NCBI GenBank assembly: GCA_028288395.1
Contig: JAQBNV010000544.1
Location: 1 to 20,178, forward strand
Direction of reading: 5' to 3'
DNA from: Adhaeribacter sp.
Lineage (GTDB): Bacteria; Bacteroidota; Bacteroidia; Cytophagales; Hymenobacteraceae
DNA length: 20,178 nt
Part shown: positions 4,411 through 20,026 of the stretch, one piece after another
Layout: every line of letters begins with the position of its first letter
How positions within the stretch are numbered: position 1 is the stretch's first letter
The notes under the pieces: model-generated
Told to the model about the DNA's origin: nothing
Seen by the model: only the letters and a program-made list of their open reading frames with translations
Databases searched by the model: none
Made by a program: the position numbers and the translations under genes

Positions 4411-6906
4411 TTAATCTAAATCAGGCGCGCCACCATCATCCCCATTATTATCCTGGTTACGTCGTTCGCGCTGGCGGTTGTTCTGGCCGGGCGTGTTGCC
4501 AAACCGGTACGAGAAGCCGCAAAAGGCAATACGAGACTGCCTTTTGCGGTAGCTTTCGGAACTGAAGTTTTCACCGGACTGCGTAATATTAAATTCCTGC
4601 GTATTAAAAATGTCGTTCAGCCGGAAGCTAATGGTCCCCTTCTTATCCAACACATCCTTTTTCAGGGCCATCTCGGTAAAAAACATGGCAGACATAGTGC
4701 CCTGCGACAGCAAAATAGGTGAGCGGTAATTGGCGGCAACCTGCAGGTCAATGCCTTTCCAGAGGGTAACATTAGAGTTGAGGCGGGCTGTCCAGCTGAA
4801 GTTACGGTTATCTATATTGGTGCCGGCATTGGTGCCGGATAAAATATTTCGGAAAGCCGACACGTTGCCATTGAGCTTCCAGGAACGAAACAGTGTTTTG
4901 GTCGCGATAAATTCTAAACCATACGCCTGCCGCGAGGCCAGGTTAATATCGGTATTAAAGGTAGTTATGCTGTCGATTATCTGACGGTAGCGCTGAATTA
5001 CATCGTTGGTACGGCGGTAAAACAGGGTCGTATTCAGGCTGGAACCGTTCTTACCGTAGTGAATCTGGCTCAGTTCAAAGGCATTCGAAAACTCCGGGCG
5101 CAAGGCTGGGTTACCGCCTCGTGGGTTCAGGGGATCCGAAACATCGATAAACGGATTTAAATCCCACATGCCAGGTCGGTTAATGCGCCGGCTATAACTG
5201 ATCTGTACCTGGTTGTCTTTGTTTAGTTCGTGCGTTAAAAAAACACTCGGGAAAAAATTAAGGTAACTGGTGTCAGGAGCGGTAATGCCCAAGGCTTTTT
5301 GCACGCCTTTATTAGCGGTATATTCCAGGCGGCTGCCTAACTGGTAACTGGTTTTGCCAAATTTATTACCGTAGGTGGCATACAAAGCGTGTACCTGCTG
5401 GTCAAAAATAAAATTATTCGAGATACCCGGATTATTCTGCCAGGTTTGGTTTAAGTTATCCAATTCCTCAAACTGGTAATCGTCGTCGCGGGTGCTGATA
5501 ATACTTTTGTAACCGGCATCGAAGCGGCCATCTTCCCCCACGGGATCGGTAAAATCGATTTGGGCGGTTAGTTGGGTATTCGATTCGTCGGTATCACTTC
5601 TTTCAAAAACTGCTGATTTGTCTTCGCTGGCTACCAGATAGCGCTGGGCAAAGTTCTGGCTCTCGCCGCCGGCGGCGGTGCTGTAAATCAGGTCGGCGGT
5701 TAGTTCCCGGCTTTTCTTCGCAAATGTTTTGCGGTAGCCCAGCGTATATTCTGCATTATAGCTGCGGTCTTGCTCAGAATTATCCCGGATGTAATGTTCC
5801 TGCAGGTTTTGGTTTCCGCTGAATAAGCGGTTAATAACTTCTTCGTTTTCTTTAGACAGGCGGTTGCGGTATTGCCACGAAGCGCTAATGGTTTGGGTGG
5901 GCGTTAACGTAAAATCGGCACCTAATTTAAATACGTTATTCGTAAAGTTCCGGGTTTCGGCTTCATCCTGGTCCAGCAGGGTAGTGCGGCCTTCAAAAGT
6001 GGTGTATCGTTCCTGGTTGCCGTAGCCATTGCGGTTATCTTTCCAGAAATCGTAACTACTAAAAAAATTGAACTTGCGATAGCGGTAATTGCCACCTACC
6101 GAAGCATTGTACCGGTTATTCGTGCCTACATTTACCGCAGCCAAACCGTTAAAACCCTGGTTTTTTTCTTTCTTCAGAATAATATTTATAATACCACCCT
6201 CACCTTCGGCATCGAATTTAGAAGATGGATTGGTTATTATTTCCACGCTTTCGATAGAGCTGGCCGGAATTTGTTCGAGGATTTGCGCCTGGTTGTCGGT
6301 AACCATGCCAGTGGGGCGGCCATCTATTAAAATACGCAGGCTGCTGCTGCCCCGCATACTTATGCCGCCATCGGCATCAACGGTTACCGAAGGTACATTT
6401 TTCATTACGTCGGTGGCCGAGCCGGCAATACTGGTTAAATCTTTGGCTACGTTTACTACTTTCCGGTCCAAGCCATACGAAACGGTTGGCCGGTCGCCCT
6501 GTACCTGTACTTCCTGCAGGCGGGTACTGCTGGCGGCAAACGTAACGATGCCCAGCCGGGCTTCCGGCGCTTCGGCCGACAGCGTTATAAGCGGTAAACG
6601 TTTAGATGCGTAGCCTATCAGGGAAACCTTGGCCACAAACCGGCCGAAAGGCAAATTGTCGATTAAGAAATTTCCTTTTTCATCGGTCATGGCCCCACCG
6701 GCAATCTGAGAGGTATCGGCCAGCGGCAACAATATAATATTGGCATAACCTACCGGCTGGCGGCTGTTTTGGTCTAACAAGGTGCCTCTTACCTTGCCGC
6801 TACCCCCGGCGGTGCTTCCAGTATTAATTTCGTTTAACTGGCCCGATGCTTTGTTTAAAAATAAGCAGTAGTTGATAAACAGAGATAAGTATAATATTTT
6901 TTTCAT
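4411..6906 (-). CDS. TonB-receptor-like outer-membrane beta-barrel protein (831 aa)
   Basis: Signal peptide residues 1-22 end in ASGQ. A carboxypeptidase-regulatory-like beta-sandwich follows at about 38-120 (KVRGTLLDQ to SLIGYAS). The plug spans about 145-245, with the family hallmarks DVMKNVPSVTVDADG, MRGSSSLRILIDGRPTG and IPASSIESVEIITNPSSKFD. The rest, to about residue 805, is a 22-strand-type barrel matching the OMP_b-brl_3 style. A polar, Asn/Asp/Arg-rich tail of about 25 residues follows the final SYRFG strand. The substrate is unknown and there is no SusD-type partner, so it is probably not a glycan SusC. It is the distal gene of a minus-strand cluster of regulator, kinase, barrel, barrel. 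An upstream element shared with the other two promoters (6946-6981) suggests control by that two-component system. Convergent with the DUF6970 gene. Confidence 0.9.
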   Translation of the reverse strand: MKKILYLSLFINYCLFLNKASGQLNEINTGSTAGGSGKVRGTLLDQNSRQPVGYANIILLPLADTSQIAGGAMTDEKGNFLIDNLPFGRFVAKVSLIGYASKRLPLITLSAEAPEARLGIVTFAASSTRLQEVQVQGDRPTVSYGLDRKVVNVAKDLTSIAGSATDVMKNVPSVTVDADGGISMRGSSSLRILIDGRPTGMVTDNQAQILEQIPASSIESVEIITNPSSKFDAEGEGGIINIILKKEKNQGFNGLAAVNVGTNNRYNASVGGNYRYRKFNFFSSYDFWKDNRNGYGNQERYTTFEGRTTLLDQDEAETRNFTNNVFKLGADFTLTPTQTISASWQYRNRLSKENEEVINRLFSGNQNLQEHYIRDNSEQDRSYNAEYTLGYRKTFAKKSRELTADLIYSTAAGGESQNFAQRYLVASEDKSAVFERSDTDESNTQLTAQIDFTDPVGEDGRFDAGYKSIISTRDDDYQFEELDNLNQTWQNNPGISNNFIFDQQVHALYATYGNKFGKTSYQLGSRLEYTANKGVQKALGITAPDTSYLNFFPSVFLTHELNKDNQVQISYSRRINRPGMWDLNPFIDVSDPLNPRGGNPALRPEFSNAFELSQIHYGKNGSSLNTTLFYRRTNDVIQRYRQIIDSITTFNTDINLASRQAYGLEFIATKTLFRSWKLNGNVSAFRNILSGTNAGTNIDNRNFSWTARLNSNVTLWKGIDLQVAANYRSPILLSQGTMSAMFFTEMALKKDVLDKKGTISFRLNDIFNTQEFNITQSGENFSSESYRKRQSRIAFCGFSYRFGNTPGQNNRQRERRNQDNNGDDGGAPDLD

Positions 6907-7225
6907 GTTTGCTGCCCATCGCTTAGATATATTAAAACGCTGAAACGAAGGTATTGTTTAAACTTACACGGGATCTGAAGTAACAGATTATCAGCAAGTA
7001 ATAAAATGCCAGATAAACCACATCTCAGATAAAGGGGCAGTTTAGACTATCGCAATGATTCTGGTTAATGCTGACGTCTTTAATCCAATTGCGTAGAAGT
7101 TAATTACGGGCTAGCAGGTAAAGAATAAGACTAACGGGCCAGAATGTTTTGGTTAAAATAAAAGCTTTGTCTCATCCTGAAATGGTTTATTTAGCCTGCT
7201 TTATTGGCCAGCCAAAAATATTCAC
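6907..7225. other. 319-bp gap between the two barrel genes
   Basis: The gap carries the promoter/operator of the distal barrel gene (6946-6981). The remaining 240 bp show no coding frame and no strong terminator for the upstream barrel gene; only a 4-bp stem TTGG-CCAG-CCAA near 7204 was seen. Confidence 0.5.
6946..6981 (-). promoter_or_regulatory. Promoter with 11-bp operator for the 831-aa barrel gene
   Basis: Minus strand, upstream to downstream: ACTTCAGATCC (6981-6971), a weaker second 11-mer CGTGTAAGTTT (6970-6960), 6 bp, then TACCTTCG (6953-6946) as a -7 box with one mismatch to TAnnTTTG. The implied leader is about 33 nt before the ATG at 6906. The arrangement has the same spacing as at 10042-10077 and 12037-12072. 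No TTTG -33 element is present, which fits activator dependence. Confidence 0.6.
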
Positions 7226-9967
7226 CTAATCCCGTTTATTGTTTTCAAAATCTTTCTGGCTGGTACCCACGCCAAAGTAGCGGATATTGTAGGTAAAGGT
7301 TAGCATAAAATATTGCTGCAACACATTGGTTTGGACGTCCTCGACATACGCATCGGATATATTGCGCCAGATGCTGATGTTTTGTTTTAGCAGGTCGTAG
7401 GCATTCAGGGTTACTTCACCCCGCTGGTTGCGGAATATTTTTTTACCGATGCTCATGTTCCAAAGCAGGAAATTATTGCTCAGATCCGAAAGGCCGGCGT
7501 AGGTCTGGTAGTGCAGATCGGTGCGGTAAACAAAACCTTTCCAAAATATCCAGTTATACCGCAGGCGGGTAGTTTGGCTGAAGTAGTTGTTATTAAGGGC
7601 CGGTCGCAGCGTGTTTTTTACAATATTGTAGTTAGATCGGGTAGAAACCGTAAAGTCAATTTTTTCGGAAATATTGCTACTCACCGATACACCTAACCGG
7701 AAATTACTCGAATTAGCCACGTTTATCTCGTTGTTGATTAAGCCGGGCCGGCTGGTATGACCCAGGCCGCCGTTCAGGTTTACGTTAGAAGATATAAAAC
7801 TTACCGGCTGCCCATAGCTAATATAGGAACGTACATCCCAGTAACCATTCAGGTTTATCGGCCTTATAATCTGGGCCCCACGCCCCACAGTTACTTTTTC
7901 GTTTAGTACGATGGGATCCTGGGCAATTAGGGTGCTATTGGTAATATAATTTTTAATAGCGGTTCCCCACACCGAAGCATACAACGTGCGGTTGGTACCC
8001 GGGTTGTGAGAGCGGTATTGTAACCGGCTCCAGTTCTGGTAAGATTGATTAAGATTGGGATTTCCCATTCTTACCTGAAGCGGGTTTGAATAGTCGATTA
8101 CATCCTGTAACTGCCCCACCGCCGGCGCACTGGTAGAAGCGCGGTAGTTAAATTCCAGGTTGCTGGACGGCGAAAACTTATATTCGAGGCGGGCCGAAGG
8201 CAGGATGCTGTGAAAACTACGGTTTAAATCAGCTGCTATTGGAAACTCCTGCTCATTTTTGAGCGTGGCCTGCTGATAAGAGGCATCTAACTGCAGCTTT
8301 AATTTTTCGGTGTTGTAGCGGTAACCTGCTTCAGCTTCCTGGGTAATGTAGTTGTTCGAAAATGTGTTGCTCAACGGAATATTCAGGTCCCGGTAATCAT
8401 CGTCTTCTTTGGTGTAATCGTAAGTGCGTTTATCTGAATCGTTTACCCGGTTGCCAATTTCGTATTCGAGCTCTAACTGGCTGTTTTTACCCAGCGGCTC
8501 GGTATATGAAACTTCGCCTTCCCAGTCAAATCCTTTCCGGTTCAGGTTGGTATACTGGTTCAGGTATTGGGTGCTGTCGGCATTGCGGCTGTAAAATATA
8601 TTTTCGGCTAACCGGTAATTGTCGCCATTATCCAGGTGGTAGCCCGAACGCAGGTTAAATGTAATGCTCCGGCCTGGTTTGAGGAAACGATGGCTGTATA
8701 ATAAATTGTTGCTATAGTCGGAGCCCAGGTTGTCGCCGGTCGCATTGTTCGTGGATTGATTTAGCGGATTAAAGTCGTTTACAGTACGGCCCAGGAAGTA
8801 AGAGTTGGCGTTATAGTTCTGAACCGAAATGCTGGGCCGAAAGCGAATCCGGTTCCGGTCGTTTATATTATAATCAATGCGCATCCGGAAATTATGGTTT
8901 GCATCGGTGTTCGTAGACCGGTTTTCTTCGGTGTATACCTGGCCGGAATCGGTGGGTAGTACAAAGTCCCGGAACTTAAGCTGGGTGGTATTATTCCGGC
9001 GGTTGTTATAAAAATAGCTGCCCGAAACTTCTAATTTCTTACCCCAGTTTTCGCTATAATTCAAACCAAAGGCATTGCTGGTTATCAGGCCATTCTGGGG
9101 CTGTTGGTCGCCCCCGTTATTCGGATCGGCCGAGAAACTTAAGGTATTAATATTATTGCTGAGACCAGTTACCGTAATGCGGCGTTCGTCGCTGAAAAAA
9201 TTTACACTGGCACCCAACTGGTAACGGTTGTCGGTTCCGTAGCCCACCGAAGTCCGGCCAAAACGGCCTACTTTCCGGTTTGGTTTCGTAACAATATTTA
9301 TGGTTTTTATTCTTTCACCATCATCAAAACCACTTAATTCGGCCTTATCGCTTTTTTTATCAAATACCTGAATATTGGCAATTACACTGGCTGGCAAATT
9401 CTGCAAAGCCGCGTTCACATCCGTCCCAAAAAACGGTTTTCCATCGATCAGAATTTGCTGCACGTTTTCACCCTGGGCCTGGATAGTGCCGTCCTGCATG
9501 GTAATGCCGGGCATTTTCTGCACCAAATCCTGGGCGCTGGCATCCGGAGCGGTTTTAAAAGCTTCGGCATTAAACTGAGTGGTATCGCCTTTTAGTTCGC
9601 CGGGGGGTATTTTGCCAATAATCTGTACTTCGCCCAGCGCTGTGGACTCTTCGATTAAAGCCAGAACACCTACATTTACCGCCGCGCTTTCCACTTCAAT
9701 AGGTTTCCGAAACGTACTGAAACCCAAATATTGCACTTTGAGAGTATACTTGCCGGGGGCCACTTTCTCAATTCTGAATTTACCTTCTACATCGGTGGTG
9801 CTGCCGGTAATGGTAATATCATCGATCCGGTTAGTTAATACTACAGTAGCGCCAATCAGGGGATTTTTATCACCAGCTCCTTGTACCGAGCCGTATACAT
9901 CAAAGCCTTGCGCATAAGCTCCCCCAATCTGCAGGGTAAAGAAAAGAAATAGTATAAGGTTTTTCAT
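7226..9967 (-). CDS. TonB-receptor-like outer-membrane beta-barrel protein (913 aa)
   Basis: The signal peptide ends AYAQ (cleavage near residue 19-20). A carboxypeptidase-regulatory-like domain covers about 22-110, with the typical DVEGKFRIEKVAPGKYTLKV pattern. The plug follows at about 115-235: a KGDTTQF strand, DLVQKMPGITMQDGTIQAQG, then QQILIDGKPFFGTD and ALQNLPASVIANIQVFDKKS. These are hallmarks of the large Bacteroidota TonB-dependent receptor family with an OMP_b-brl_3 barrel. The remaining about 670 residues are aromatic- and Asn-rich beta-strands. The substrate cannot be told from sequence, and no SusD-type lipoprotein is nearby. The gene begins 111 bp after the sensor kinase stop codon and has its own promoter with the tandem operator (10042-10077), so it is likely both a readthrough and a regulated target of the adjacent two-component system. 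Confidence 0.9.
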   Translation of the reverse strand: MKNLILFLFFTLQIGGAYAQGFDVYGSVQGAGDKNPLIGATVVLTNRIDDITITGSTTDVEGKFRIEKVAPGKYTLKVQYLGFSTFRKPIEVESAAVNVGVLALIEESTALGEVQIIGKIPPGELKGDTTQFNAEAFKTAPDASAQDLVQKMPGITMQDGTIQAQGENVQQILIDGKPFFGTDVNAALQNLPASVIANIQVFDKKSDKAELSGFDDGERIKTINIVTKPNRKVGRFGRTSVGYGTDNRYQLGASVNFFSDERRITVTGLSNNINTLSFSADPNNGGDQQPQNGLITSNAFGLNYSENWGKKLEVSGSYFYNNRRNNTTQLKFRDFVLPTDSGQVYTEENRSTNTDANHNFRMRIDYNINDRNRIRFRPSISVQNYNANSYFLGRTVNDFNPLNQSTNNATGDNLGSDYSNNLLYSHRFLKPGRSITFNLRSGYHLDNGDNYRLAENIFYSRNADSTQYLNQYTNLNRKGFDWEGEVSYTEPLGKNSQLELEYEIGNRVNDSDKRTYDYTKEDDDYRDLNIPLSNTFSNNYITQEAEAGYRYNTEKLKLQLDASYQQATLKNEQEFPIAADLNRSFHSILPSARLEYKFSPSSNLEFNYRASTSAPAVGQLQDVIDYSNPLQVRMGNPNLNQSYQNWSRLQYRSHNPGTNRTLYASVWGTAIKNYITNSTLIAQDPIVLNEKVTVGRGAQIIRPINLNGYWDVRSYISYGQPVSFISSNVNLNGGLGHTSRPGLINNEINVANSSNFRLGVSVSSNISEKIDFTVSTRSNYNIVKNTLRPALNNNYFSQTTRLRYNWIFWKGFVYRTDLHYQTYAGLSDLSNNFLLWNMSIGKKIFRNQRGEVTLNAYDLLKQNISIWRNISDAYVEDVQTNVLQQYFMLTFTYNIRYFGVGTSQKDFENNKRD

Positions 9968-10041
9968 TAGGATGGCTTTCGAATATTAATCAATATCAAA
10001 ACTACGGCTTCTGAGACACCATAGTTTAAATCAAAACAGCC

Positions 10042-10077
10042 GAAATATACTGCTCAAATCTGTTTTGAATCTGAAGT
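10042..10077 (-). promoter_or_regulatory. Promoter with tandem 11-bp operator for the 913-aa barrel gene
   Basis: Minus strand: ACTTCAGATTC (10077-10067) directly followed by AAAACAGATTT (10066-10056), 6 bp, then TATATTTC (10049-10042), one mismatch from TAnnTTTG. CAGATT recurs exactly 11 bp apart, the usual period of OmpR/PhoB-family direct repeats. The distal half-site begins one base past the kinase stop codon. The operator occupies the -33 region, where no TTTG is found. Confidence 0.7.
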
Positions 10078-10078
10078 G

Positions 10079-11341
10079 TCAGAAGGTTAGCTGGAAAAAG
10101 TGGCGGTCGTTTTGGTAGTGGTGGGTTATTTCAAGGCCGTTTATGTCGCAGATTTTTTTTACAATAGCCAACCCCAAACCCAGGGAATTAGGCTTGTCGG
10201 CGTTTTTGCGAAAACGATCAAAGATTTGGTGCGAATCGAAAGTAAGAGGTGAGCCGGTGTTGGCAATGGTTAACTGGTGCGGCAATACTTGTATACTGAT
10301 TTCCCCGCTTTTATAGTTGTGCGTTAAAGCGTTTTTAAACAGGTTGCTGAGCAATACATCGAGTAAATAACCATCAATAAAAAGAGTGGCTTCTTTGTCT
10401 AAATCCGTAATAATTTTTACATTTTTCAGTTCGGCCAGTTCTTTAAAATTAAATAAAATATTCTCTACAAAAGCCTTCAGCTGAATATGCTCTTTGTTTT
10501 TAAACTCCTGGTTGTTGATGCGGCTCATGAGGGCCAGCGTTTTGCTCAGTTTGGAGAGGCGCGTGGTGGATTGGTAAATGGCGTTCAGGGCCTGGTATTC
10601 CTGCTCCGGAATATTGCCCGATTTGAGCAGCATTTCGAGTTTGGCCCGCATTACCGCCAGTGGGGTTTGCACCTCGTGCGAAATATTATCGGTAAACTCT
10701 TTAATGTTGCGGTAATCGTACTCGATGCGGGTTACCATTTGGTCGATTAGGCCGTTTAGCTCTTCGAACTCCTGGGTACTGGTGGGCTGTAAGGCAATGG
10801 GCTGATTTTTATTTACCGAGTAGTGCCGGATTTGCTCGAGCGTGTGCCGGAACGGAAGCCACAAAAAGTGCGAAGACAAATAATTTAACAGCAGCAAGAC
10901 CACCAGCAAAGCCAGAAACAGGTAAACCGCCGCCTGAATAATAAATTTTTGCAGCAGCACGTAATCCTGCATGGCAATAAATATCGAAATGCGGTATACT
11001 TTGCCCCGGATGGCCCGGTCGAAGGTGCGCACCCGGTAAAGCTCGGTTTGACCCGACATGTCATTAAACAGGTATACCTCCCGGTCGAAGCCGGCAATAA
11101 CGGGGGCTTTAACCTTGGGCAGGCGCTCTATTTTGAGTGAATTGTAGGAATTTATAAGTGCCAGATCCGGAACCGGCTCCGACAGCAGGGTTAATACGCG
11201 GTGCTCGCGGTATCGGAAATTCTGCCGGATTTGCTCCTGCATAAAATTACTGGCGGTAGCATACAGCATATAACCGGTACCCGAAATAACCAAAGCAATA
11301 ATAAGCAGGTAAAGCAGGGTCGTTTTGGTTATCAGCTTCAT
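10079..11341 (-). CDS. Membrane sensor histidine kinase (420 aa)
   Basis: The protein autophosphorylates on His and passes the phosphate to the adjacent regulator. TM1 is at about 8-28, a periplasmic sensor region of roughly 105 residues at 29-135, and TM2 at about 136-156. The H-box reads ISHEVQTPL, with H222. The N-box includes LSNLFKNALTH (N333, N337), the F-box IFDRF (373-377) and the G2 box LGLGLAIV (387-394). The G1 position reads NTGSP instead of the textbook DxGxG, a form common in Bacteroidota kinases of this type. A HAMP domain is not obvious; residues 157-205 form a linker. The ATG immediately follows the regulator's stop codon with no gap, so the two are cotranscribed and probably translationally coupled. 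The signal sensed is unknown. Confidence 0.93.
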   Translation of the reverse strand: MKLITKTTLLYLLIIALVISGTGYMLYATASNFMQEQIRQNFRYREHRVLTLLSEPVPDLALINSYNSLKIERLPKVKAPVIAGFDREVYLFNDMSGQTELYRVRTFDRAIRGKVYRISIFIAMQDYVLLQKFIIQAAVYLFLALLVVLLLLNYLSSHFLWLPFRHTLEQIRHYSVNKNQPIALQPTSTQEFEELNGLIDQMVTRIEYDYRNIKEFTDNISHEVQTPLAVMRAKLEMLLKSGNIPEQEYQALNAIYQSTTRLSKLSKTLALMSRINNQEFKNKEHIQLKAFVENILFNFKELAELKNVKIITDLDKEATLFIDGYLLDVLLSNLFKNALTHNYKSGEISIQVLPHQLTIANTGSPLTFDSHQIFDRFRKNADKPNSLGLGLAIVKKICDINGLEITHHYQNDRHFFQLTF

Positions 11342-12019
11342 TTAGGCCGAAATAAATTTGTAGCCCATGCCGTAAACCGATTTAATATTATTGCGGCTGC
11401 CTTTGGTTAATACTTTTTTGCGGAGGTTTTTAATGTGGGTATAAATAAAATCGAAAGAATCGGCCATGTCAATATTATCGCCCCAGAGGTGTTCGGCAAT
11501 AGATTCTTTGTTCAGGATGCGGTTGCGGTTGCTGATAAAATAAAGCAGCAGTTCGTATTCTTTGCGGGTTAAAGTGGCTTCTTCGTCGTTTACAAAAACC
11601 TGGTTGGTGGTGGTATTTACCCGGATGTCGTCGAGGATAATTTCGTTGCTGCCGTTAAAGCGTTTGCGCCGCATCAGCGATTGCACACGGGCATTTAGTT
11701 CGGCCAAATGAAACGGTTTGGTCAGGTAATCGTCGGCGCCCAGGTGCAGACCTTCGAGTTTATCGTCGAGGGCATTTTTAGCCGAAACAATGAGTACGCC
11801 GGCGGCAGAATAATTTTGTTTTAACCGTTTGAGTAAATCCAGGCCGCTGCCATCGGGCAGGGTAATGTCCAGCACAATAATATCGTACTCGTAAATGGCT
11901 ATTTTTTCGTCGGCTGTTCTATAATCGGGCGCTGCCTCGCAAATGTAACCTTCCTGCCGCAGGTATTTTACCACGGTTTCCGACAGGTCAGCATTATCCT
12001 CCACCAATAATATTTTCAT
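11342..12019 (-). CDS. OmpR/PhoB-family response regulator (225 aa)
   Basis: The receiver domain spans residues 1-115: acidic residues E7 and D8, phosphoacceptor D51 in the VLDITLPDGSG motif, S79 at the Thr/Ser switch position and K101 in the LTKPF motif. The winged-helix DNA-binding domain is at about 126-225, with LTRKEYELLLYFI and the C-terminal YGMGYKF. The frame is open upstream to an ATG at 12133, but I chose the ATG at 12019. It begins MKILLVEDN, the normal receiver N-terminus, and a promoter with a tandem operator lies between the two ATGs. The gene abuts the kinase gene. The tandem 11-bp operator in front of it suggests autoregulation, and the same operator precedes both barrel genes, which makes them the likely regulon. 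Confidence 0.95.
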   Translation of the reverse strand: MKILLVEDNADLSETVVKYLRQEGYICEAAPDYRTADEKIAIYEYDIIVLDITLPDGSGLDLLKRLKQNYSAAGVLIVSAKNALDDKLEGLHLGADDYLTKPFHLAELNARVQSLMRRKRFNGSNEIILDDIRVNTTTNQVFVNDEEATLTRKEYELLLYFISNRNRILNKESIAEHLWGDNIDMADSFDFIYTHIKNLRKKVLTKGSRNNIKSVYGMGYKFISA

Positions 12020-12036
12020 GCTTTTAAAGTAAAGTC

Positions 12037-12072
12037 CAAATATACGCCCGGAATCTGAAGTAATACTGAAGT
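12037..12072 (-). promoter_or_regulatory. Promoter with tandem 11-bp operator for the regulator-kinase operon
   Basis: Minus strand: ACTTCAGTATT (12072-12062) directly followed by ACTTCAGATTC (12061-12051), 6 bp, then TATATTTG (12044-12037), a perfect TAnnTTTG -7 box. The 11-bp period is typical of OmpR/PhoB-family regulators, and the site overlaps the -33 region. The leader to the ATG at 12019 would be only about 10 nt. Confidence 0.75.
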
Positions 12073-13426: not shown

Positions 13427-16400
13427 ATGTCTGTTTCTGAACATCCTATATCTGCTAAACTCGAAGCTGCCCGCCGCGAGCTCCTGGACCTGAGTTTGCG
13501 TAATCCGTTGCTTAACTACCGGCCCCTGAAGGCGCGGGGCGTAGAAGTGGTAAATGAAATTCCCGCTACTGTTTTCAGAATATTGGTGAAGGAAGGCAAA
13601 GCCATGTCTTTTCTGCCAATCAATGCCAAAACAGCCGTAACGCTGGGCGCGCCGGCCCTGGAGATCGAGCCGGAAGAAGAAGCTCCTACCCCGGAGCAAA
13701 GCGATAATAAACTTCAAACCAAAGAAACCCCGGCCAGGCTGGATGCCCGCCTGCTTGATACTTACCACTCGGCCCGCATGTTTGTAGAGGAGCAGGGCGT
13801 AAGCATTCTGTACCTGGCGTTGGGCACTTTAACGTGGTACGAAACCGAAACCAGCACCGACGGCCGGCCCGCCCCCCTGATCCTGGTACCCGTAGAACTG
13901 GAGCGCACTACGGCCCGGGAGCGGTTTCAGGTGCGTTATTCGGGTGGCGAAATTGGTTCTAACCTCTCGCTGATTGCCCGCATGAAAGCAGATTTCGATA
14001 TTATATTACCGGAGCTGCCCGAAACCGAGGAAATAAACGTGGGGCAATATTTTGATGAAGTCTGGCGACGGGTAGTAGGCCGTAAAGGTTGGGTAATTAA
14101 CTCAAAGGCTATTTCGCTGGGCTTTTTCTCGTTCGGTAAGTTTATGATGTACAACGACCTGGACGAAGCCAACTGGCCCGATACGGTTAAACCGCACCAG
14201 CACCGCATCCTCAAGGCCTTGCTCCTGGACCAGGGTTTTACCGAGCCGGCTTCGCATATTCCGGATGATGCCCACCTGGATGAATATTTAGCCCCGACTA
14301 CCAACCGGCAGGTAGTAGATGCCGATAGTTCCCAAACGCTGGCTATTCTGGATGTAAACCAAGGTCGAAACCTGGTTATACAGGGTCCGCCGGGCACCGG
14401 TAAATCCCAGACCATTACTAATTTAATTTCCGAGGCCCTGGGCCAGGGCAAAACTGTGTTGTTTGTCGCCGAAAAAATGGCTGCCCTGGAGGTGGTAAAA
14501 CGCCGGTTGGATAAAGTAGGCCTGGGCGTAGCCTGCCTGGAACTGCACAGCCATAAAACAAATAAAAAAGATTTACTGCAGGAGCTAAGCCGCACGCTGG
14601 AACTGGGTAAACCCAAAACCCAAACCCTGGAAAGTGACTTGAAACTGCTGGAGCAGGTGCGGAGCCGTTTAAATGACTACGCCGATGCCGTTAATACGCC
14701 GGTAGGAGTAAGTGAGTTAACCGTATATACCATTTTCGGACGGCTGATGCAGCTCCGGAAAAAATATACCGGGGTGGTGTTGCCCCGGCTGGTGCTGCCG
14801 GCTTTTTTAAACTGGACCTTCGATGAATTTAAAAGCCGCGAAGTACTGGTAGAAGAAACCCAGGCCCGCTTGCAGCAGATTGGGCAGCCTACTAACCTGT
14901 TGTTCTGGGGCAGCGGCAGAAGAACTTTAATGCCTTCGGAACAGAACCGGCTGGAACCGGCCCTGGAAGCTGCCCTTAGCGCTACCCAGGCCTTACGCGA
15001 AGCTGCCGGGCAGTTGGCGCAGGCCATTACGCTGCCCGCCCCCGAAACCATTCTGGAGGCCGAAACCCTGAGTAAAATTGCTTACCGCCTGCAGCAGAGG
15101 CCCCCGTACCAGGGCATTCATTTGCTTTCGGAGGTTTGGTTGCAGCAGTCCGGCGATTTGCATAAACTAATAGCCGCGGGCAAACAGCTAACGGCCACCC
15201 GGCAAAGACACGAAGGCGTGTTGCTACCAGAAGCCTGGGAGGCCGCCGATATATTGCCCATCCGCCAGGATTTATTAGCTTACGGTACCAAATGGTGGCG
15301 CTTCTTTTCGGGCGCTTACCGCCAGAGTAAAAAGAAATTAACCGGTTACACCCAGTCGGGCTTGCCCACCGATAATGCCGCCCAGCTAGACCTGGTAAAT
15401 GCCGTGCTGGAAGCCCAGCGTCAGCAGAAAATAATAACCCAATACGCCGATTTAGGCAAAACTGCTTTTGGTACCCAATGGCAGGCCGAAGACTCTAGCT
15501 GGGACCGCCTGGACGAGGTGAGCCGCTGGGCCACCGCTTTGCACCAGGCCGTAGAAAAAGCAGAATTGCCCGCAGCCGTTATTTCTTACCTGGTGCAGGA
15601 ACCAAGCCTGGGCACTCTTAAACCGCTGCAGCAGTCCCTGGAAAATGCCTTACGGGAACAATCGGCGCGGCGGCTCGAAATAACCCAATTGCTGCAACTA
15701 AACGACAGGCAGCGCTTTGGCGAGAACAACGATTTGCGTAACCCTACTTTCCGGGAGCAGGAAGCATTATTTCTTACCTGGCGCCGGCACCTCGATGAGC
15801 TGCACCAGGCCGTAGCCTGGAATAATTTAACCGATAGGTTGCAGGAGGCGGGACTGCAGGAAATAATTAACTTGGTCAATGCCTGGCCCGAGGCCGGGCA
15901 ATATTTAACCGTAACTTTTGCCCAAACCTGGCTCGAAGCCCTGCTGGAAAAAGCTTACGAAGAACGGCCGGCGCTGCTGCACTTTGAGCGGGCAAGCCAC
16001 GAAGAAGTGGTAGAGAAATTCAAGAACCTCGATAATTTAATGCTGGCTTATAACCAAACTCGCTTGGCTGCTTTACATTACTACCAGTTGCCCCTGCACG
16101 AAGCCGGCGGCCAGTTGGGTATTCTTCGGCGCGAATTTGAGAAAAAAGCCCGCCATTTGCCCATCCGGCAGCTCATGGCCAAAGCGGGTAAAGCCATCCA
16201 GACCATTAAGCCGGTTTTTATGATGGGACCGCTTTCTATTGCTAATTTCCTGCCCCCCGAAAGCCTTCATTTTGATTTGGTAATATTTGATGAGGCCAGT
16301 CAGGTTAAACCCGTAGATGCTCTGGGCGCTATTTTACGGGCCGGCCAGGTAGTGGTGGTGGGCGACAGCCGGCAAATGCCACCTACCAGTTTTTTCGATG

Positions 16401-18136
16401 CGCTGGTAAAAGAAGAGGAAGTAGAAGAAGAAAATATTACGGCCGATGTTGAAAGCATACTGGGTTTATTTTCGGCCCAGGGAGCACCCCAGCGTATGTT
16501 GCGCTGGCATTACCGCAGTCGCCACGAGTCGCTGATTGCCGTTTCGAACCAGGAATTTTACGAGAACCGCCTGGTAATATTTCCCAGCCCGGATGCCGGT
16601 CGCACCAAAGCCGGCCTGGTGTACCACCATCTGGCTGATACTTTTTACGACCGCGGTAAAACCCGCACCAATCCGAAAGAGGCGGAACGGGTAGCCGCTG
16701 CCGTAATGGAACACGCCCGCACTTCGCCGGGGCTTAGCCTGGGGGTCGCAGCTTTCAGTATGGCCCAGATGCAGGCCATTATTAACCACCTGGAAATAGT
16801 GCGGCGCGAGGAACCTGCTCTGGAAGCTTTCTTTATGGGCCACCCGAACGAACCCTTCTTTATTAAAAACCTTGAAAATGTACAGGGCGATGAGCGCGAT
16901 GTAATATTTATCAGTATTGGTTACGGGCGCACCGAAGACGGGCAATTAGCCATGAGCTTCGGACCACTAAATGGGGTGGGCGGGGAGCGCCGCCTGAACG
17001 TGCTGATAACCCGGGCGCGTTTGCGCTGCGAGGTGTTTACGAACCTGAGTGCCGATGATATTGATCTGACACGCACGCAGGCCCGCGGTGTACAGGCTTT
17101 TAAAACTTTCCTGAGCTACGCCCAGAATGGACAGTTGCCCTTAATGGCAGGCAGCGGCGAGGAACTGGCTTCGCCGTTTGAAGTACTGGTTTACGAGACG
17201 CTGACGCAGGCCGGTTACGAGGTGGTAGCCCAGGTGGGTTCCGTTGGTTTTTATATTGATCTGGCCGTGGTGCACCCGCAGCAGCCGGGCCGCTATTTAT
17301 TGGGTATTGTGTGCGACGGTAACAGCTACAACCGGGCCCGCACGGCCCGCGACCGCGACCGGCTGCGGCAATTGGTGCTCGAAGGTTTGGGCTGGCAAAT
17401 ATACCGTGTCTGGAGCACCGATTGGTTCCGTAACCCCGAAGCCGAACAAAAGCGGTTACTGCGGGCGGTACAAAAAGCGCTGCAGGAAAATACCGAAGCC
17501 CGGCCCGCTATTGCTGATAAAGTGCCTGAAATAATACCCGCCATCCAACGCGAAGAAGTTAAAGCCCCGGCACCGGATAATTCTCTGCCACTTTACCAAA
17601 CTGCTTCCCTGAAAATAAATACCGGCAACCGCGAATTACACGAAGTGCCCGCCCCGGAATTAGCTAACTGGGTGCAGGAGGTAGTACAGGTAGAAAGCCC
17701 GGTACACCAGCAGGAAGTACTGGAACGCCTGGTGGCGGCGGCGGGCATTAACCGGCTGGGCCTGCGGCTGCGGCTGGCTGTAGATACAGCAGTAGCCTTG
17801 GCGGTGCAGGCTGGTAAAATAAAACAGTTTGGCGAATTTTTGTGGTTGCCTGATATGCAAACGCCGCCCTTGCGGGACCGGAGTACTTTGCCCAGCGAAT
17901 CCCGGGATATTAATTTGATTTCGCCGGTTGAATTAAGTGGTGTGATTCGGAAAGCGGTGGGCGATGCTTTTGCGCTGGCAGCACCCGAAATAGCGCCGGT
18001 AGTAGCCCGGCTATTAGGCTTTTCCCGGTGCACAGATAATATTCGGGAACGGGTTGACCAGGTGGTGGAAGAGATGCTACAAGGCGGTAAGTTGGTAAAA
18101 CAAGGCGAACACCTGCTCTTGCCCCGGGCAACCTGA
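13427..18136 (+). CDS. DUF4011 / superfamily 1 helicase / Vsr-like nuclease / DUF3320 protein (1569 aa), candidate anti-phage defence
   Basis: Residues about 8-30 (LLDLSLRNPLLNYRP) mark the DUF4011 N-terminus. The helicase is a Upf1/DNA2-like superfamily 1 enzyme: Walker A GPPGTGKS (320-327), Walker B DEASQ (955-959), motif III GDSRQMPP (979-986), WHYRSR (1027-1032), motif V VQGDERD (1152-1158) and motif VI VLITRAR (1192-1198). A long helical insertion (about 400-900) separates Walker A and B. Residues about 1249-1365 match the Vsr-like MTES_1575 restriction-endonuclease domain, with D1278 and GIVCDG (1293-1298). The usual family form, from memory, is GIECDG followed by a His; here V1295 and N1302 occupy those places. 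DUF3320-like repeats end the protein. Predicted role: cytosolic nucleic-acid unwinding, with uncertain cleavage. Similar single-protein systems are considered phage defence, which I infer here without a defence-island context. Confidence 0.9.
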   Translation: MSVSEHPISAKLEAARRELLDLSLRNPLLNYRPLKARGVEVVNEIPATVFRILVKEGKAMSFLPINAKTAVTLGAPALEIEPEEEAPTPEQSDNKLQTKETPARLDARLLDTYHSARMFVEEQGVSILYLALGTLTWYETETSTDGRPAPLILVPVELERTTARERFQVRYSGGEIGSNLSLIARMKADFDIILPELPETEEINVGQYFDEVWRRVVGRKGWVINSKAISLGFFSFGKFMMYNDLDEANWPDTVKPHQHRILKALLLDQGFTEPASHIPDDAHLDEYLAPTTNRQVVDADSSQTLAILDVNQGRNLVIQGPPGTGKSQTITNLISEALGQGKTVLFVAEKMAALEVVKRRLDKVGLGVACLELHSHKTNKKDLLQELSRTLELGKPKTQTLESDLKLLEQVRSRLNDYADAVNTPVGVSELTVYTIFGRLMQLRKKYTGVVLPRLVLPAFLNWTFDEFKSREVLVEETQARLQQIGQPTNLLFWGSGRRTLMPSEQNRLEPALEAALSATQALREAAGQLAQAITLPAPETILEAETLSKIAYRLQQRPPYQGIHLLSEVWLQQSGDLHKLIAAGKQLTATRQRHEGVLLPEAWEAADILPIRQDLLAYGTKWWRFFSGAYRQSKKKLTGYTQSGLPTDNAAQLDLVNAVLEAQRQQKIITQYADLGKTAFGTQWQAEDSSWDRLDEVSRWATALHQAVEKAELPAAVISYLVQEPSLGTLKPLQQSLENALREQSARRLEITQLLQLNDRQRFGENNDLRNPTFREQEALFLTWRRHLDELHQAVAWNNLTDRLQEAGLQEIINLVNAWPEAGQYLTVTFAQTWLEALLEKAYEERPALLHFERASHEEVVEKFKNLDNLMLAYNQTRLAALHYYQLPLHEAGGQLGILRREFEKKARHLPIRQLMAKAGKAIQTIKPVFMMGPLSIANFLPPESLHFDLVIFDEASQVKPVDALGAILRAGQVVVVGDSRQMPPTSFFDALVKEEEVEEENITADVESILGLFSAQGAPQRMLRWHYRSRHESLIAVSNQEFYENRLVIFPSPDAGRTKAGLVYHHLADTFYDRGKTRTNPKEAERVAAAVMEHARTSPGLSLGVAAFSMAQMQAIINHLEIVRREEPALEAFFMGHPNEPFFIKNLENVQGDERDVIFISIGYGRTEDGQLAMSFGPLNGVGGERRLNVLITRARLRCEVFTNLSADDIDLTRTQARGVQAFKTFLSYAQNGQLPLMAGSGEELASPFEVLVYETLTQAGYEVVAQVGSVGFYIDLAVVHPQQPGRYLLGIVCDGNSYNRARTARDRDRLRQLVLEGLGWQIYRVWSTDWFRNPEAEQKRLLRAVQKALQENTEARPAIADKVPEIIPAIQREEVKAPAPDNSLPLYQTASLKINTGNRELHEVPAPELANWVQEVVQVESPVHQQEVLERLVAAAGINRLGLRLRLAVDTAVALAVQAGKIKQFGEFLWLPDMQTPPLRDRSTLPSESRDINLISPVELSGVIRKAVGDAFALAAPEIAPVVARLLGFSRCTDNIRERVDQVVEEMLQGGKLVKQGEHLLLPRAT

Positions 18137-18259: not shown

Positions 18260-20026
18260 ATGGATAAAGACCTGACCAATGTCGTTTCTCCTTCGCACGC
18301 GCCCAAGCTGAAAGAGTTGCCGGCAACTGCCATTTGCGGAAACGATATTACTTCCTCCTGTTTGTACGTTTCGGCGCTGGCTATTATGTATGCCGGCCAA
18401 CTGGCCTGGGTAGCTTTGCTGATGGTGGGCATGGTGTTGTTTTTATTTCGGAAAATTTACGGCGAGGTAGTAGGAGCGCTACCCTTAAACGGCGGGGCCT
18501 ACAATGCGCTTTTAAATACCACCAGCAAACGAACGGCTTCGCTGGCGGCCTGCCTTACTTTATTATCCTATATGGCTACGGCGGTAATTTCGGCCAGCGA
18601 AGCCATGCACTATGTACACCACCTCTGGGAGAACCTACCCGTTATACCGGCCACTATGGCTTTACTGGCGTTGTTCATGGGCCTCTCTATTCTGGGTATC
18701 GGCGAATCGTCTATTGTGGCCATCGTTATTTTTATAACCCACTTGTTAACCCTCACCTTGCTGATTATAGTTGGGTTTTTATTTTTATTTAATAATGGCT
18801 TTGATACCCTGACTCTAAACTACAGCCAGCCATTGGAGGGCGGCGTTACCCGGGCTTTATTTTTTGGTTTTGCCGCCGCCATGCTGGGGATTTCGGGTTT
18901 TGAGAGCTCGGCTAACTTTGTAGAAGAACAGGCCCCGGGGGTATTTATCAAAACCCTGCGCAACATGTGGATGGTGGTCACAATTTTTAATCCTTTAACT
19001 GCTTTTTTAGCCCTGGCCCTGATTCCGATGGCTGCTGTTGCTGCTCACCAGGAAGCTTTACTGGCGTATCTGGGCGAAATTGCGGGTGGTAGCTGGCTGG
19101 CCTGGGTTATTTCTATTGATGCGGCTTTGGTATTAAGTGGTGCCGTTTTAACTTCTTACGTGGGCGTAACCGGGTTGGTACACCGCATGACCCTCGACCG
19201 TTGCCTGCCCCAATTTTTACTCAAAACAAATAAAAGAGGTACGGTTTACCTGATAATTATCTCGTTCTTTATTTTGTGTGTATCTATTTTGCTTATTACC
19301 CAGGGCGATTTAGGCGCTTTGGCGGGCGTATACACCATCTCTTTTCTGTCGGTGATGGCCTTGTTTGGCATCGGAAATTTATTGCTCAAATTCCGGCGTA
19401 ACCGTTTGCCCCGCCCGGTGCGGGCCTCGATCCTAAATATACTTCTAGCAGTTTCAGCCGTAATAGCCGCTTTAGTCGGCAATGCCATCCTGAACCCAGC
19501 TTACTTATGGGTGTTTCTTAAATATTTTATTCCTACTATTTCGCTGGTGTTTATTATGTTGTACCGCATAAGTCTGCTGCGGTTTTTAACTTATTTGCTG
19601 CAACGAATCGAAAAGTCTCTGGGCTGGATTTTTCCTATTACTTCTTATCACCTAAAAAGAATTATCACCCAAATTAACTCGCAGGAATTTGTGTTTTTTA
19701 CCAAAGGCGATAATATTGCCAATATAAATAAGGTGATGCGCTACATCGAAGACAATGAGAACACCCGGCGTATTAAGATTGTGAATATTTTAAGCGAAAA
19801 TGAATCGCCGCCTAAAAAGCTGATGCACGAAGTAGATGTGCTGGACCGCGCCTATCCCGATTTGGATGTTGAGTTTATTATCATGAAAGGACATTTTGGG
19901 CCAGGGCTTATTCAGGAGTTATCCCGGAAATGGAATGTGCCAAAAAATTTCATGTTCATTGGCTCGCCCGGCGATCGGTTTGTCTATGCTATCCAGGATT
20001 TAGGTGGGGTACGCCTGGTTATTTAG
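18260..20026 (+). CDS. APC-family amino acid permease with cytosolic C-terminal domain (588 aa)
   Basis: A secondary transporter of the amino acid-polyamine-organocation superfamily in the inner membrane. Residue 27 onward reads GNDITSSCLYV, the unwound TM1 substrate-site region. GALPLNGGAYN (72-82) is the conserved APC motif after TM2. GFESSANFVEEQAPGVF marks the TM6 region. I count about 12 hydrophobic segments up to residue 440. The last 135 or so residues are soluble (QEFVFFTKGDN at 475 onward, VEFIIMKGHFGPG) and resemble a regulatory, USP-like fold seen on some APC transporters. The substrate, probably an amino acid, is not determined. The gene follows the helicase after 123 bp with no obvious terminator between, so some readthrough is possible, though functional coupling seems unlikely. 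Confidence 0.92.
   Translation: MDKDLTNVVSPSHAPKLKELPATAICGNDITSSCLYVSALAIMYAGQLAWVALLMVGMVLFLFRKIYGEVVGALPLNGGAYNALLNTTSKRTASLAACLTLLSYMATAVISASEAMHYVHHLWENLPVIPATMALLALFMGLSILGIGESSIVAIVIFITHLLTLTLLIIVGFLFLFNNGFDTLTLNYSQPLEGGVTRALFFGFAAAMLGISGFESSANFVEEQAPGVFIKTLRNMWMVVTIFNPLTAFLALALIPMAAVAAHQEALLAYLGEIAGGSWLAWVISIDAALVLSGAVLTSYVGVTGLVHRMTLDRCLPQFLLKTNKRGTVYLIIISFFILCVSILLITQGDLGALAGVYTISFLSVMALFGIGNLLLKFRRNRLPRPVRASILNILLAVSAVIAALVGNAILNPAYLWVFLKYFIPTISLVFIMLYRISLLRFLTYLLQRIEKSLGWIFPITSYHLKRIITQINSQEFVFFTKGDNIANINKVMRYIEDNENTRRIKIVNILSENESPPKKLMHEVDVLDRAYPDLDVEFIIMKGHFGPGLIQELSRKWNVPKNFMFIGSPGDRFVYAIQDLGGVRLVI

Follow-up and report, generated by a model that had tools for sequence, protein, structure and literature searches.

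PmrA, also named BasR, is a response regulator of the OmpR/PhoB class that, according to excerpts of two papers, recognizes two hexamers 5 bp apart, is bound to them head to tail over the place of the −35 element, and reads the bases with Asn188, Asn196, and Arg210 (PMC3973317, PMC4660055). In the PorXY system of Porphyromonas gingivalis, as described in an excerpt of another paper, PorX has a PglZ motif, and the genes porX and porY, which are widely separated, are reported to lack autoregulation (PMC8050853). For sigma-A of a flavobacterium, an excerpted account gives the −7 consensus as TAnnTTTG (PMC9723704).

We analyzed a 20,178-nucleotide stretch of Adhaeribacter sp. DNA, called the window below, whose minus strand carries, in this order, genes for a response regulator (225 aa; 11342..12019, with the ATG at 12019-12017), a sensor histidine kinase with HisKA and HATPase_c domains (420 aa; 10079..11341), and two outer-membrane barrels of 913 aa (7226..9967) and 831 aa (4411..6906). 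With a receiver and an OmpR-type winged-helix domain both above the Pfam cutoffs (Response_reg 90.9 versus 30.2 bits, Trans_reg_C 66.4 versus 26.2 bits), the regulator falls, like PmrA, into the OmpR/PhoB class, and BasR chains are among its best PDB matches. PmrA is also its top NCBIfam row, but the 175.2 bits reached lie below the curated cutoff of 330 bits, and the protein is not filed as PmrA. The operator described below has its closest described counterpart in the PmrA box of enterobacteria, with which, as the excerpts portray it, it shares the 11-bp head-to-tail layout at the −35 place, but its core is CTTCAG where the PmrA box has CTTAAG/T, so that it is not a PmrA box in the strict sense. 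In an alignment with BasR, Asn196 is kept and Asn188 is replaced by Asp, a substitution that may go with the changed core base. The system further differs from PmrA in having a Bacteroidota −7 box and, as its predicted target, an outer-membrane barrel. The regulator may nevertheless work like PmrA.

The kinase resembles the PorXY system in passing the NCBIfam PorY-family cutoff (376.9 versus 350 bits) and differs from it in that its gene adjoins an OmpR-type regulator gene with an operator of its own. Since a PglZ-domain protein is present in all eight genus genomes, it is possible that the kinase also branches to a PorX-like protein. Both barrels exceed the gathering score of OMP_b-brl_3 (PF14905), the 913-aa protein with 87.4 bits and the 831-aa protein with 375.7 bits against a threshold of 27 bits, and both have an N-terminal carboxypeptidase-regulatory-like domain (CarboxypepD_reg). 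The 831-aa barrel matches Plug (39.7 bits), and its sequence retrieved no PDB chain at E 0.001.

A Predicted Tandem 11-bp Operator before the −7 Box

In a preliminary description, the promoters of the regulator and the two barrels were proposed to share a tandem 11-bp operator at a fixed distance from the −7 box. The letters and coordinates given there for the distal 11-mers are right at all three places (12072-12062, 10077-10067, and 6981-6971), and in each case a second 11-mer adjoins the first and is followed, after 6 bp, by a −7 box (TATATTTG, TATATTTC, and TACCTTCG, respectively). On the minus strand, the regulator gene is preceded by ACTTCAGTATT + ACTTCAGATTC (12051..12072) with its −7 box at 12037..12044. 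The operator before the 913-aa barrel, ACTTCAGATTC + AAAACAGATTT (10056..10077), has a degenerate second half and starts directly after the kinase stop codon, its −7 box lying at 10042..10049. The proposed third site before the 831-aa barrel, ACTTCAGATCC + CGTGTAAGTTT (6960..6981, same strand), is at chance level and shows no conservation. The operator can be written approximately as nCTTCARwTTnCTTCAGAwT, in which an 11-bp unit is repeated in direct orientation and the second copy is separated from the −7 box by six bases. Within the 33 bp inspected upstream of each box, TTTG is absent at 17-23 bp from all three, as had been stated; it lies 29 bp from the first box and 5 bp from the second, and the third has none. 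Scans for sigma-70 promoters and terminators gave match counts below those in shuffles.

As the pattern had been taken from the sites themselves, it was tested with a weight matrix that excluded the window. This matrix was built on 13 sites that precede orthologous or related regulators, and the two strands of the window offered it 40,284 positions. First came the regulator site with 34.7 bits and second the site of the 913-aa barrel with 18.9 bits; the next-best position in the window scored −0.7, and the site before the 831-aa barrel came 15th with −4.3 bits. A matrix made from the seven genus sites alone placed the same three sites at ranks 1, 2, and 18. When the top score within each 200-bp upstream stretch was set against 1000 shuffles, the P values were 0.001 for the regulator, 0.001 for the 913-aa barrel, and 0.12 for the 831-aa barrel. 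Together with the conservation reported below, the matrix and the shuffles support a tandem operator standing where a −33 element would be. The second half-site, described earlier as strong at the first two promoters and weak at the third, is strong before the regulator (13.5 bits) but not before the 913-aa barrel (only 1.8 bits), and it is indeed weak before the 831-aa barrel (−13.3 bits).

For genome-wide searches we used a model, R1, of 14 regulator-upstream and 3 PepSY-gene-upstream sites, with no barrel site. It gave the regulator site, which it itself contains, 27.9 bits, and the window's 913-aa barrel site only 11.6 bits (E 0.055 in 164 kb); in the genome search, the latter was missing among the six R1 matches in G000, the source genome, at E ≤ 1. 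For the predicted 913-aa barrel site of the window, the support comes from the matrix and from the orthologous sites. The simple pattern ACTTCAG-N21-TANNTT occurs five times in the 3.95-Mb assembly, and three of these occurrences are the proposed sites.

Conservation within the Genus

Orthologues of the kinase were found in A. rhizoryzae (89% identity), A. aerolatus (88%), A. aquaticus (70%), and four further Adhaeribacter genomes (53-58%). In an R1 search, the operator was present upstream of the orthologous regulator in all eight Adhaeribacter genomes, whose sites are contained in R1, and the recognition helix DSFDFIYTHIKNLRKK is identical in seven of seven genus orthologues. Both relatives with the 913-aa barrel beside the kinase (L022 and L023) keep the barrel together with its site, and their second half-sites, at 9.3 bits, are better than that of the window. 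Upstream alignment in the relatives bore out two of the proposed sites, those of the regulator and the 913-aa barrel, but not the third.

The repeat and its spacing were assessed in an alignment (A1) of 17 sites, made without the siteless loci L016 and L019 and with the register set on the proximal half-site. It agrees with the 11-bp period proposed earlier, identity being 63% at shift 11 and not exceeding 30% at any other shift between 6 and 15. The T of the −7 TA stands at one and the same distance from the repeats in 17 of 17 sites, the A in 15, and TT in 15.

Predicted Targets Elsewhere in Adhaeribacter Genomes

Across the eight genus genomes, R1 gave 67 matches at E ≤ 1, of which 19 lie at E ≤ 0.0032 and are followed by a gap to 0.011. 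These 19 comprise eight regulators, four distant OMP_b-brl_3 barrels, the two orthologous 913-aa barrels of L022 and L023, three TolC-like genes, one membrane-fusion gene (G001), and one match lying some 380 bp upstream of a DUF892 gene (G005). The distant barrels belong to the four genomes (G003, G004, G006, and G007) that have neither barrel within 12.5-13 kb around the kinase; there, the second-best R1 match lies at another place on the chromosome, its end 31 bp upstream of the gene for a 995-999-aa barrel, and it was made although the model contained no barrel site. The four proteins form one orthologous set (82-100% identity), a domain scan showed OMP_b-brl_3 for that of G004, and the 14 kb around them contain no relative of the regulator or the kinase. 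The genus offers a clear instance of rewiring, in that one regulator seems to act on the adjacent barrel in some species and on a distant, different one in others. In a survey of barrel homologues (30 loci fetched out of 40 matches), four loci had an R1 site at E < 1e-4, all of them these distant orthologous barrels; one weak match (E 0.09) was seen among the others, and 25 of the 30, including the window's 831-aa barrel, had none.

TolC-like outer-membrane efflux genes with an upstream tandem site occur in three species (L099, on contig C446 of G000, L095, and L096; genomes G000, G001, and G002). By their sites, the TolC-like genes are a possible further target, and the TolC-like and membrane-fusion sites could also belong to a paralogous regulator. 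At E ≤ 10, no R1 match was found in the PepSY-like gene locus of the source genome (L188), at the other two ACTTCAG-N21-TANNTT places (L001 and L002), or at two further barrels (L149 and L158). Because the source assembly consists of 681 contigs and is 79% complete, some targets of the regulon may be absent from it. A pattern search allowing up to three mismatches in 10 genomes was set aside as not strict enough to delimit a regulon by itself, with matches in 8 of the 10 genomes, many inside genes, and the reversed control pattern matching as well in 5 of 10.

The Operator outside the Genus

Among relatives of the kinase outside the genus, a site was found upstream of the regulator in six of eight loci; the other two (L016 and L019) had none at up to five mismatches. 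A sample of 118 genomes of the phylum provided 28 regulator homologues, the window's own being left out and L120 and L121, which have one common upstream sequence, both being counted. The shuffle P value upstream of these homologues was ≤ 0.05 in 21 of the 28 and at its floor of 0.005 in 13, and the forward strand outscored the reverse in 22. The seven homologues that missed 0.05 include both paralogues in the window's own genome.

Half of the 28 loci were extended, 11 of these 14 having been chosen for an R1 match. The order regulator, kinase, operator, barrel is seen in six of the 14 (L129-L133 and L139), which represent two families of other classes. Their barrels are 30-33% identical to the 831-aa barrel, an operator also precedes the regulator, and the weakest of their operators scores 11.8 bits. 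In another genus of the family (L031-L033, whose sites are part of R1), the operator that follows the kinase stands before the gene of an SdiA-regulated/PepSY-like protein; domains were scanned for L031 only, where the PepSY-like domain is just below its cutoff. Other operator matches precede PepSY-like proteins (L142, L174, and L187), an SdiA-regulated protein (L176), and a PAP2 phosphatase (L184). A family search at E 0.002 with stricter filters gave a match in 17 of 41 genomes and none in 24.

PAP2-type phosphatases also follow the kinase in L136 and L142, as one follows the operator in L184. Such neighbors recall the lipid A remodelling of PmrA regulons, and the PAP2, PepSY-like, and TolC-like neighbors elsewhere are a hint that the output of the system may be envelope remodelling.

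Proposed Mechanism and Alternatives

The two-component system very probably binds the paired site both before its own gene and before the adjacent 913-aa barrel gene. Our best reading, held with considerable confidence, is that of a PmrA-like, autoregulated system that activates an outer-membrane barrel. The kinase would phosphorylate the OmpR/PhoB-type regulator, a dimer of which would bind head to tail on the two direct repeats with their CTTCAG core. The repeats, six bases before the −7 box, would replace the −33 element, and the bound regulator would help RNA polymerase start at that promoter. The regulator–kinase operon would in this way control itself, and through the second operator, placed directly after the kinase, the regulator would switch on the 913-aa, TonB-receptor-like barrel. 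The system would then be a two-component regulon of an ordinary kind, with a mechanism of a known kind. The earlier proposal that the regulator binds all three sites, activates both barrels, and controls itself holds up for autoregulation and for the 913-aa barrel; for the 831-aa barrel, binding and activation had been deduced from a site that is doubtful.

The sites, their spacing and conservation, and the gene context are what we observed; that the encoded regulator is the binder of the repeats and that it activates we infer, and both points have a competitor. The operator may be real and the regulator may repress there, or a paralogous OmpR-type regulator may bind it, an alternative that we consider unlikely. 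The sites do extend over the core of the promoter, a position that would permit repression, and the genome has close paralogues of 53 and 52% identity. Activation is nevertheless likelier than repression since the operator takes the place of the −33 element, and the lack of TTTG at the usual distance is what is expected of activator-dependent promoters. As for the paralogues, neither gene is preceded by the site (P = 0.88 and 0.11), whereas the site travels with the window's regulator in all eight genus genomes.

Somewhat less probable still is that all three promoters are bound, the 831-aa barrel site being a weak or recently changed operator. Its distal 11-mer and its spacing to the TANNTT box match, and the operator neighbors barrels of the 831-aa type in the six loci of other classes, so that this type may be the older target. 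The site nevertheless has the low rank, shuffle P value, and second half-site score given above, and R1 finds no match to it in the window at E ≤ 10, in L003, the locus that contains it, at E ≤ 10, or in L166 at E ≤ 5. The 831-aa barrel is kept in three relatives (L022, L023, and L024), none of which has an upstream site (P = 0.50, 0.15, and 0.73) or the distal 11-mer. Because of its score, the shuffle result, and the missing conservation, we rejected the site as an operator, and a role of the regulator at the 831-aa barrel finds no support in the window's genome.

A merely accidental likeness of A/T-rich promoter stretches, singled out by eye, is very improbable: the pattern was chosen post hoc, and ACTTCAG occurs seven times in the window, every time on the minus strand, but the window-free matrix, the shuffles, and the conservation in the genus and beyond already contradict this reading for two of the three sites.

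Implications for Regulation in Bacteroidota

The promoters of the Bacteroidota follow a code peculiar to this phylum, in which, to our knowledge, few operators of ordinary two-component regulators have been mapped. Among the matches listed in our search of the open-licence literature, we found neither a description of a CTTCAG tandem operator nor a link of OMP_b-brl_3 barrels to a two-component operator. The 37-bp signature can be searched as a profile. It allows targets to be predicted for a regulator subfamily that is common but unstudied, and it ties this subfamily to outer-membrane barrels without a known role. The system appeared to us of moderate interest for the breadth of its operator and the exchange of its barrel targets in a little-mapped phylum.

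We give even weight to the broader proposition that the locus represents a widespread PmrA-like module of the Bacteroidota, in which an autoregulated regulator–kinase operon has a fixed CTTCAG-N5-CTTCAG operator that is repeated after the kinase, and the output gene is exchanged between lineages. The outputs would then be OMP_b-brl_3 barrels, PepSY-like or SdiA-regulated proteins, and perhaps PAP2 phosphatases and TolC-like channels, and the operator and the recognition helix would stay nearly the same while the output changes. Such a module would serve to remodel the envelope as a general response, and one output would be swapped for another when either the operator or the gene is moved.

Other Features of the Window

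Just 3′ of the distal 11-mer of the rejected third site, TTTAAACAATACC (6950-6962, minus strand) is kept at the same place in L022 and L023 as in the window, while the flanking sequence diverges; it is possibly the true promoter of the 831-aa barrel or the site of another regulator. On the plus strand, 13427-18136 encodes a 1569-aa DUF4011/helicase/MTES_1575-nuclease protein that scores 2035.8 bits against PDC-S37, a candidate family of anti-phage defence, and an amino acid permease gene (AA_permease_2) follows at 18260-20026.
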